From the NCBI RefSeq assembly GCF_014359565.1, contig NZ_JACIZD010000002.1, positions 248,001-312,000 on the forward strand: DNA of 64,000 nt, given 5' to 3'. Positions 8,927-40,700 of the stretch are shown here, piece after piece (positions within the stretch are counted from its first letter, which is position 1; the number at the start of each line of letters is the position of its first letter). A model generated the notes under the pieces. The model worked only from the letters and a program-made list of their open reading frames with translations. It was not told where the DNA came from and did not search any database. The position numbers and the translations under genes were made by a program. This DNA is from Immundisolibacter sp. GTDB lineage: Bacteria; Pseudomonadota; Gammaproteobacteria; Immundisolibacterales; Immundisolibacteraceae.

Positions 8927-8930
8927 GGAA

Positions 8931-8961
8931 GCTGAATACATCCATCCAGGATTTTCCAGCG
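8931..8961 (+). repeat. Palindromic element, inverted near-copy of one before rplI
   Basis: The 31 bases just after the cupin gene read GCTGAATACATCCATCC then AGGATTTTCCAGCG. The reverse complement of 40190-40220 reads GCTGAATAAATCCATCC then TGGATTTCTCAGCG, so the two differ at only a few places. A dispersed repeat is the best reading. Confidence 0.6.
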
Positions 8962-8970
8962 ACCGCGACC

Positions 8971-9044
8971 TGGAAAGACCGGGTAGGAGCCCAGCTTCGC
9001 TGCGCGATGATCGCCCGGCACAGCCGGGCTCTACAGGTTTCCGA
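8971..9044 (+). repeat. REP-like dispersed repeat, copy A
   Basis: A ~75-base element running from TGGAAAGACCGGGTA through CTTCGCTGCGCGATGATCG to CAGGTTTCCGA. It contains the hairpin GCCCGGC-ACA-GCCGGGC. Copies lie at 45694-45762 and 54786-54862. With the 31-base element before it, it fills the cupin-mutL gap. Confidence 0.65.
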
Positions 9045-9137
9045 TGGCTCACACAATCAGCGGCTTGCAGCCACCGGTGCCGGCCGACCCGCGGCGGGCC
9101 GCATCAACGCTTGCACGCCGCGCCGCTCGGGGCCGGC

Positions 9138-39110: not shown

Positions 39111-40061
39111 GTGACCGGGGCGCCCGCCGCCGGCGATCGCCTGGCGACGCTGGCGGCCTGGCTGGCGACTGGTGGATGGTCGGCGGCGGCTCTGTTGGCG
39201 GCGCTGGCAGTCGGTCTGCTGGCCGCGCTGCTGCTGCCGGGCGCGGTGTTACTGCTGCCGCTGGCGCTGGCCTGCAACGTGGCCGGCATCAGCCTGCTGG
39301 CGCTCGAAGCCGGTCCGCAGGCCGCGCTGCGCAGCCTGCTGCTGATGATCCTGTTGCTGGCACCGCTGGTCCTTCTGGGCGGCGCCGGTCTGCTCGGGCC
39401 GGCCCTGCTGTTTGCCTGGTTGCCGGGCCTGGCCGCCGGCTTTGCGCTGCGATCCGCGCGCAGCCTGCCCTTGGCGCTGGTCGTGCTGACGGCGCTGGCG
39501 GTGACGGTGGTGCTGGTTGTGAACCAGACCGGCCTGCCGACCGGCGAGCCCGAAGGCCGCCAGGCGTTGGTCGATGCGCTGGTCAAGCTGAACCCGAGGC
39601 TACCGGCGGGCGAACTCGATGCAGCACTGGATCTGATGCTGCAACTGGCCGGCGGCCTGCTGGCGCTGGTGCTGCTGGGCGCGTGGACCGGCGGCCTGGC
39701 CCTGGGCCGCAGCCTGCAGGCGCGGCTGCGGCGGCCGGGCGCGTTCGCGCAGGAGTTTCGCGCGCTGCGCTTCGGGCGCGCGTACAGCCTGCTGGAGCTG
39801 ACTGCGGTGGCGGCGGCCTTGGGGCTGCGCCTGGCCGCTGGCGGCCTGGCGGTGGAACTGGCGCTGGTGCTGGCGCTGCCGCTGTTGCTGCAGGGGCTGG
39901 CCCTGGTGCACGCGGAAACGGCGCGGCGCGGCTGGTGGCGCCGCCTGCCGTGGGCGGTGTACCTGATGCTGGTGCTGGCCACGCCGCAGATCGGGTCGCT
40001 GCTGGTGATACTGGGGCTGGTGGATAATTGGCTCGATTTCAGAAACCGCCCGCTGCGCTGA
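39111..40061 (+). CDS. DUF2232 integral membrane protein
   Basis: 316 residues, almost entirely hydrophobic with about eight predicted helices and a repeated Leu/Ala/Gly pattern. A conserved-looking cytoplasmic stretch AQEFRALRFGRAYSLLEL lies near residue 222. DUF2232 members sit between rpsR and rplI in many proteobacteria; the function is unknown. The GTG start is 4 bases after rpsR. Confidence 0.8.
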   Translation: MTGAPAAGDRLATLAAWLATGGWSAAALLAALAVGLLAALLLPGAVLLLPLALACNVAGISLLALEAGPQAALRSLLLMILLLAPLVLLGGAGLLGPALLFAWLPGLAAGFALRSARSLPLALVVLTALAVTVVLVVNQTGLPTGEPEGRQALVDALVKLNPRLPAGELDAALDLMLQLAGGLLALVLLGAWTGGLALGRSLQARLRRPGAFAQEFRALRFGRAYSLLELTAVAAALGLRLAAGGLAVELALVLALPLLLQGLALVHAETARRGWWRRLPWAVYLMLVLATPQIGSLLVILGLVDNWLDFRNRPLR

Positions 40062-40102
40062 GCGCGGGCACCCGGGCAACGCCAAACGACGCGGCGCTGC
40101 CC

Positions 40103-40220
40103 GCGGGCCACGGATGGCCCGCCGCGAATCGGTCACGCAGGTGACCGATTCGGCGAAGGCGCGGCCGGTCCAGGACCGGCCGCGGCGTACGCTGAGAAAT
40201 CCAGGATGGATTTATTCAGC
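40103..40220. repeat. Array of four consecutive hairpins before rplI
   Basis: Hairpin 1: GCGGGCCA-cgga-TGGCCCGC (40103-40122). Hairpin 2: CGAATCGGTCAC-gcag-GTGACCGATTCG (40125-40152), a perfect 12-bp stem. Hairpin 3: CGCGGCCGGTCC-A-GGACCGGCCGCG (40160-40184), perfect 12-bp arms. Hairpin 4: GCTGAGAAATCC-aggat-GGATTTATTCAGC (40191-40220), with an imperfect lower stem. They fill almost all of the 192-base gap between the DUF2232 gene and rplI, and each central part holds a variant of C(C/A)-AGG or CACGGATGG. Confidence 0.8.
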
Positions 40221-40253
40221 GATTAACCTAGCAACAGCCTGGAGGCTGCGGTC

Positions 40254-40700
40254 ATGCAAGTGATTCTGATGGAAAAAATTCGGCACCTGGGCAACGTCGG
40301 TGACCGGGTCGAGGTCAAGGGCGGCTATGGTCGCAACTACCTGCTGCCGACCGGCAAGGCCGTGTTCGCATCGCGTGACAACATCGCGCGCTTCGAGGAA
40401 CAGCGGGCCGCCATCGAGAAAGCCGCCGCCGAAACCCTGGCCAAGGCGCAGGCCCGCGCCGCCGCCCTGCAGGATGTGACCGTGACCATCGCCCACAAGG
40501 CCGGTGACGGCGGCCGCCTGTTCGGGTCGGTCACCACGCGCGAGATCGCCACCGCGCTGACCGCCGCCGGGCATGCGGTGGACAAGCAGGAGCTGAACCT
40601 GCCCGAGGGCGCCATCCGCACCCTGGGCAGCTTCCCGCTGGACGTGAACCTGCACGCGGACCTGGTGGCGCGCGTCACCGTCGAGGTGGTGGCGGAGTAA
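40254..40700 (+). CDS. rplI: 50S ribosomal protein L9
   Basis: Two-domain L9, 148 residues: the N-terminal rRNA-binding domain MQVILMEKIRHLGNVGDRVEVKGG-type with GYGRNYLLPTGKA, a long connecting helix (about 40-75), and the C-terminal domain ending VTVEVVAE. The SD-like GGAGG is at 40240-40244. It is separated from rpsR-DUF2232 by the hairpin array, which could uncouple its expression. Confidence 0.97.
   Translation: MQVILMEKIRHLGNVGDRVEVKGGYGRNYLLPTGKAVFASRDNIARFEEQRAAIEKAAAETLAKAQARAAALQDVTVTIAHKAGDGGRLFGSVTTREIATALTAAGHAVDKQELNLPEGAIRTLGSFPLDVNLHADLVARVTVEVVAE

Follow-up and report, generated by a model that had tools for sequence, protein, structure and literature searches.

What is the dense run of hairpins that lies within a ribosomal protein operon directly upstream of rplI, where did it come from, and is it of any use to its host? 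The run is located in a window of 64,000 nucleotides, by which we denote the whole stretch of DNA that was analysed. The genome of the window is referred to as G000, G002 is a congener, and L numbers denote individual loci that were examined. According to the initial annotation, made from the letters alone, four inverted repeats at 40103-40220, two of them with perfect 12-bp arms, split an S6-S18-DUF2232 part from L9-DnaB. Direct reading and an inverted-repeat check confirmed all four at these positions as well as the perfect arms at 40125-40152 and 40160-40184, but the run consists of five hairpins, the additional one being located at 40075-40101. With respect to the flanks, S6, S18, L9 and DnaB were supported by Pfam, whereas no Pfam match was obtained for the presumed DUF2232 gene. 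This ORF of 316 aa (39111-40061), situated between S18 and L9, stays without a match at an E-value of 0.001, though it occupies the place where DUF2232 is expected.

The spacer is strongly structured. The stretch 40062-40256 (195 bases) folds at -115.6 kcal/mol, compared to -82.7 +/- 4.1 kcal/mol in 200 dinucleotide shuffles (z = -8.1), not one of which reached so low an energy. Folded singly, the four hairpins of the initial list reveal z-scores of -3.8, -6.9, -5.8 and -4.7, while the additional one reaches only -2.05 by itself and belongs to the run as hairpin V of the family described below.

As judged by a covariance model match (R3, see below) and a co-linear alignment (A2), the complete element comprises 153 nt (40075-40227, plus strand) and carries its hairpins in the order V-IV-III-II-I on the strand co-directional with rplI. 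Hairpin V (GGCAACGCC...GGCGCTGCC, 40075-40101, plus strand), which was missing from the initial list, includes one terminal inverted repeat. Hairpin IV (40103-40122, plus strand) has arms of 8 bp and a CGGA loop, which appears in the family alignment as the hexaloop ACGGAT, an ANGGAN type, and reads AGGGAT in the G002 ortholog. It is followed by hairpin III (40125-40152, plus strand) with a perfect stem of 12 bp and the loop GCAG; this loop is often GNRA in the family, but not in the window copy. Hairpin II (40160-40184, plus strand), again a perfect 12-bp stem, is closed by a single A and occupies the same position as in other copies, with a stem sequence unlike theirs. Hairpin I (CGCTGAGAAATCCAGGATGGATTTATTCAGCG, 40190-40221, plus strand) combines CGCTGA/TCAGCG with AAATCC/GGATTT and has close copies elsewhere in the genome. 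On the rplI side, the terminal inverted repeat end (40222-40227, plus strand) reads ATTAAC and is changed from about GCTTCC in the family. The right target site (40228-40231) is CTAG and fits the motif YTAR, while the position of the left target duplication (40071-40074) holds a decayed CCCG that matches the right site in two of four bases.

A genome-wide search for copies, as advised by the initial annotation, was productive for the last hairpin, for which blastn of the spacer returned many close copies in G000. The first three hairpins of the initial list gave no convincing blastn match in G000 except to their own palindromes. In the flanks of 19 hairpin-I copies, further hairpins lie alongside, some of them GTAG-REP-like. 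When 84,980 species genomes, a collection that may leave out records near the window's genome, were scanned for exact matches to the core, 11 stretches from three MAGs were obtained, most of which contain the element in full length with five hairpins and about 152 nt. Aligned with these MAG copies, the window exhibits the same five hairpins over 40075-40227, and the four originally listed correspond to IV, III, II and I.

Three models were employed for searches: R1 represents hairpin I, R2 is the full model and includes the window copy, and R3 was built from 28 other copies with the window copy and its G002 ortholog left out, so that only R3 is independent of the window copy. R3 matches the window at 40075-40226 with 102.9 bits (E=2.1e-27), and hairpins V-II without hairpin I retain a score of 42.4 bits (E=6.1e-11, 20 kb searched). 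The first three hairpins of the initial list hence match the family by structure, and the GC-rich stems of the window have homologues that blastn misses because of their divergence. On this sequence evidence, 40075-40227 is a single element of a mobile family, neither a chance cluster nor a mosaic.

Signs of mobility come from the borders of the copies. Among 81 copies for which both flanks were available, and in which L079/L084 and window/L022 are the same sites entered twice, 38 carry identical 4-bp flanks with the motif YTAR, compared to 6.8 expected when the right flanks are shuffled. The family ends in terminal inverted repeats of the GGAAnCnCTGA type, and IS5-family elements whose paired ends are similar to the ends of the local elements were found in G002, G309, G088 and G098. 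The two ends of these IS elements, which are of the GGAAACGCTGA or GGAnCnTCTG type, match each other in 14-16 of 16 positions in G002, G309 and G088 and in 13 of 16 in G098; the relatives in G309 and G088 show ends of the GGAnCCTCTGA type, as do the local elements. In G132, a single such IS end was seen. The DDE transposase of G002 is present in 12 copies identical in protein and belongs to the IS5 family (NF033581, 325.7 bits at a cut-off of 140); the ends of this IS begin with GGAAACGCTGAT, and the copy read is bordered by CTAG on both sides. At one site of the IS5-family element in G002 (L090, L237), two copies follow each other in tandem with one CTAA between them. The IS5 relative in G315 has ends unrelated to those of the element, and with one IS5 transposase as query no IS match was obtained in five of the 14 genomes tested (G219, G385, G391, G376, G469), all of them carriers.

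The combination of YTAR repeats and similar IS5 ends argues for an IS5-type MITE family rather than a REP/BIME family. An IS5-family transposase acting in trans would be the most likely mover, to judge from the similar ends and the target site. Since the left site CCCG and one end are changed, the window copy is old and probably immobile. A search for orthologous flanks returned none, and no clean empty site was found; the rplI spacer of G001 is short, contains one other hairpin and is not alignable as such a site.

Two explanations dispense with an IS5-type origin and have to be weighed at this point. One is a mosaic of mobile palindromes (BIME-like), suggested by the initial annotation together with a search for RAYT-type genes. 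With REPINs and BIMEs associated with RAYTs (PMC3733652), the element has in common that it is palindromic, short, repeated and mostly extragenic. RAYT-type genes are indeed present in G000, with four Y1_Tnp matches (L071-L074); two Y1/RAYT matches were tested, of which one was above the cut-off of NF047646 (197 bits) and the other below (64.2 vs 80). Moreover, GTAG-REPIN-like sequence occurs within other copies, 14 of 35 in G000 and 23 of 42 in G002. The element itself, however, has no GTAG tag of its own and differs in its ends and target site, being delimited by two terminal inverted repeats and a 4-bp YTAR duplication at a length of about 152 nt. The window copy is free of a REPIN, and in the eight stretches of G000 and G002 that were checked for RAYT flanks no copy directly borders a RAYT gene, the nearest lying at distances of about 1.2 kb (L072) and 0.9 kb (L077). 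An origin by RAYT was rejected on account of the IS5-like ends, the target site and the missing RAYT flanking, and we attach hardly any credence to a RAYT-moved REP/BIME mosaic. What endures of the earlier suggestion is that the sequence is mobile and has many relatives in the genome.

The other explanation, that the hairpins arose at this site and serve the S6-S18-L9 operon in attenuation or mRNA processing, is highly unlikely as well. It would be in line with the position within the operon on the co-directional strand and with the persistence of the run in both G000 and G002, accompanied by a compensatory change. Yet the run is homologous to copies elsewhere, hairpins II-V included, and it is absent from the rplI spacer of eight relatives. 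The initial annotation had named an ordinary spacer in relatives, combined with a lack of further copies in this genome, as evidence against its reading; the eight relatives are without the element at rplI, but many other copies exist in the genome. Neither a terminator nor a promoter was found at the rplI element. A promoter or terminator reading was rejected for this reason, and the earlier guess of transcription attenuation is without support, since no terminator-like site is present. The element may have acquired a secondary role at rplI after its insertion.

The family is widely distributed. R1 gives at least 37 matches in G000 and at least 55 in G002 (E<=1e-4; 150 candidates scored per genome) and zero at the same threshold in G001 and G003-G007. 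In the scans at class and phylum level, 8 and 7 candidates per genome, respectively, were scored under strict filters, so that all counts are lower bounds. R1 was found in at least 23 of 369 gammaproteobacterial genomes (E<=1e-5), and R2 in at least 69 of these 369, about a fifth, representing at least 51 of 272 genera (E<=1e-6). In the phylum sample, at least 47 of 398 genomes match R2; 44 of them lie outside the class, including 36 in one family, which might belong to the Zetaproteobacteria. The length of the element is nearly constant across distant genomes. It was not seen in plasmids, phages and viral contigs (one query each; blastn and exact pattern).

Base pairing in the stems was studied in two alignments. 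Alignment A4, fitted to structure, contains 96 distinct rows from 102 matches over 100 loci. Here, 95.4% of 5334 stem cells pair, and 56 of the 57 pairs are changed on both sides; the number of cells with two-sided change amounts to 1122, compared to 293 +/- 17 after shuffling and at most 202 when partners are slid, in which case 37-46% are paired. As a structure-free check, a MAFFT alignment of 28 copies was used, window and G002 ortholog being left out. It reveals pairing in 93.3% of 1583 cells, two-sided change in 31 of 57 pairs, and 246 cells with two-sided change against 92 +/- 8 in shuffles and at most 65 when slid. The measure of further pair types is less clear in this alignment, the observed value being reached in 24 of 500 shuffles.

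With regard to the strand, G-U exceeds A-C on the strand read in the window, with 130 vs 75 cluster-pair events and 27 vs 6 clusters in A4 (48 clusters); in the MAFFT alignment the numbers are only 53 vs 36 cells, and 15 vs 6 rows with 7 ties. Where hairpin III has a tetraloop (33 rows), it is of the GNRA type in 27 rows on the window-read strand and in none on the opposite one. The loop of hairpin IV conforms to ANGGAN in 82 of 96 rows, both N being variable, and hairpin I exhibits GGA in 92 of 96 rows and the full ANGGA in only 25. The G-U excess, the strand specificity of GNRA and the ANGGAN/GGA loops thus mark the window-read strand as the RNA-like one, and this strand appears to be under structural selection. 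Taken together, comparison of the sequences shows homology to a family, signs of mobility and an RNA-type constraint alike.

The nature of the conserved loops leads to the Csr/Rsm system. A hexaloop ANGGAX on a stem has been proposed as high-affinity Csr/Rsm site, and omission of the N results in lower affinity (PMC4005645). With hairpins IV and I, the element has more than one stem-borne GGA loop of the A(N)GGAX type. Rfam thresholds were passed neither by the window nor by six loci with typical copies. Below these thresholds, the window matches rsmX (21.3 bits, E=0.046) and the typical copy L190 matches RsmW (27.1 bits, E=0.0036), both in full length and on the same strand, and L208, a copy from outside the class, gave no match to the Csr/Rsm clan of Rfam. 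With a best Csr/Rsm score of 27.1 against a gathering threshold of 52 bits, membership in a known Rfam family was rejected. Neither is membership in RsmW (RF02809) claimed, since a genome search detected it in two of 360 genomes, G000 and G002 not among them.

A gene for CsrA was detected in G000 and G002. The association between CsrA and the element is not significant, with CsrA in 61 of the 69 genomes that match the element and in 252 of the 300 that do not (p = 0.46), and the element-positive G100, G130 and G202, all with a completeness of 90% or more, show no CsrA match. Orientation to neighbouring genes is unbiased as well: for the 56 copies of G000 and G002 with both sides callable by a simple codon model, the GGA strand is sense in 15 cases and antisense in 13, while 23 copies lie between convergent and 5 between divergent genes. 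A rougher test (9 to 5) likewise shows no bias. This disfavours a general role in cis and, together with the non-significant CsrA association, leaves an RNA acting in trans from those copies that happen to be transcribed, a motif for something other than CsrA, or a role of the loops in the element's own life. From loop form and strand, we infer that the putative element RNA would bind CsrA/RsmA.

The copy at rplI deserves separate treatment. It is inserted in sense orientation, and its hairpin I ends 32 nt before the start of rplI. Outside the element, a small hairpin CAGCC-TGGA-GGCTG (40235-40248, plus strand), which is also present in G001 and weak if taken alone (z -1.19), contains the likely rplI Shine-Dalgarno sequence and exposes a TGGA loop at 40240-40243. 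The copy has been retained in both G000 and G002, and the two orthologs differ in seven positions. Three differences reside in loops, one of them being the variable N of ANGGAN; of those in stems, one breaks a pair in II and two jointly replace A-T by G-C in I; the last one is close to the changed end. Given a sense copy with GGA loops and a likely Shine-Dalgarno sequence in a hairpin with TGGA, an effect of CsrA on L9 is possible, though merely inferred.

Two further readings accept the mobile element and differ in what it does. An IS5-type MITE without RNA function, whose stems stay paired via template-switching repair or a need of the DNA, would suit the unbiased orientation, the non-significant association with CsrA and the weak G-U excess on the structure-free alignment; besides, MITEs usually have strong hairpins. 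Against it speak the strand-specific conservation of loops, i.e., ANGGAN with variable N and GNRA on one strand only, and the nearly constant length across distant genomes, and we consider this reading rather unlikely. Quite improbable, in our view, is a recruitment of the rplI copy as a CsrA site in cis, which would act jointly with the GGA of the Shine-Dalgarno hairpin to repress translation of L9. The sense orientation, ANGGAN in IV, GGA in I and TGGA at 40240-40243 would fit, as would the csrA genes of G000 and G002, but one end and the left target site are decayed, and the location of many other copies would not permit such an action.

In all likelihood, and as far as sequences can tell, the run is a full-length, partly decayed copy of an IS5-type mobile element of about 152 nt that is selected as folded RNA and represents a candidate binder of CsrA/RsmA. 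The element would be non-autonomous, with terminal repeats of the GGAAnCnCTGA type, a YTAR duplication, no gene and five consecutive hairpins. Its insertion between the 316-aa ORF and rplI would predate the split of G000 and G002, and its orientation would place the RNA-like strand into the presumed operon transcript. What is selected would be the folded RNA of this strand, in which paired changes in the stems would be tolerated freely, whereas the loops of IV (ANGGAN), I (GGA) and, often of GNRA type, III are kept. Our best guess for the function of such an RNA is CsrA/RsmA binding as a decoy released from read-through transcripts; at rplI, it might alternatively serve as CsrA/RsmA site in cis upstream of the ribosome-binding site. 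More far-reaching is the notion of a widespread transposable Csr/Rsm RNA family, IS5-mobilised, with five hairpins and two CsrA/RsmA-type loops, which reaches dozens of copies in some Gammaproteobacteria and extends beyond the class. CsrA sites would then be moved as mobile DNA, and one copy would have landed in sense in an essential ribosomal operon. We put this forward tentatively, as a possibility that falls somewhat short of being probable.

MITEs are normally seen as decaying DNA. The MITE-like family described above has preserved a single RNA fold although much of its sequence has been replaced. Should this RNA bind CsrA, binding sites and decoys for a global regulator would be supplied by mobile DNA, and CsrA regulons would have to be redrawn in many non-model bacteria. 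Even without CsrA, selection at the RNA level on a mobile element whose length hardly varies poses a puzzle that is directly testable. The novelty lies in the joint occurrence of mobility, conservation of the RNA type and loops resembling Csr/Rsm sites; no account of the element was found in searches of the open-access PMC literature.

Among known systems, bacterial MITEs moved by IS5 share terminal inverted repeats, a short target duplication, the lack of a gene and a high number of copies with the family, and IS5-family elements with similar paired ends accompany it in four carrier genomes. Ordinary MITEs are generally regarded as local derivatives of one IS. Unlike these, the window family maintains one five-hairpin architecture of about 152 nt over many genera, also outside the class, with stems replaced in pairs.

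QMITE1 and QMITE2 of Coxiella burnetii are mobile and hairpin-rich, and sRNAs arise from them; QMITE2 has 150-190 bp and holds a GTAG REP, as do the REPIN-loaded copies of the window family (PMC5896051). According to the same source, direct repeats are 7-11 nt in QMITE2 and 2-3 nt in QMITE1 and of variable sequence, in contrast to the 4-bp YTAR of the window family, a distinction at the level of published descriptions. The Csr/Rsm sRNAs such as RsmX and RsmW (Rfam clan CL00106) resemble the element in that they consist of consecutive hairpins with GGA in their loops; for RsmW, binding to RsmA and an apparent origin from a 3'-UTR have been described (PMC4950607). The element scores far below their gathering thresholds (56 and 52), and they are sRNA genes whereas the element is a mobile repeat. 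The gyrA RNA motif (RF01740) is matched by the II-I half of L190 (1471-1545; 27.3 bits, E=3.2e-5) and by the window (19.8 bits, E=0.017), in both cases below gathering (45), and is typed as cis-regulatory in Rfam. It might be a recruited relative of the element; its own literature was not found in open-access PMC.

Finally, several copies reveal insertions or unusual arrangements. At 8927-9119 (minus strand), the window harbours the element once more, with an insertion in the region of hairpin II; this copy scores 37.9 bits with R2 and 37.3 bits with R3. In the 14 G000 and 23 G002 copies (among L001-L020 and L121-L178) that are associated with a GTAG-type REPIN, its core is no more than 120 nt away from hairpin I, and in several copies that were read closely it is placed inside the loop of hairpin II, giving nested palindromes. 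In G120 (L184, L202), the loop of hairpin II is instead enlarged by another insert of some 13-14 nt. Possible tandem arrays were observed on contig 1 of G026 (2569128-2569522), where three overlapping full-model matches recur every 124 bp, and in L300 (347-654), with two full-model matches spaced by 158 bp.
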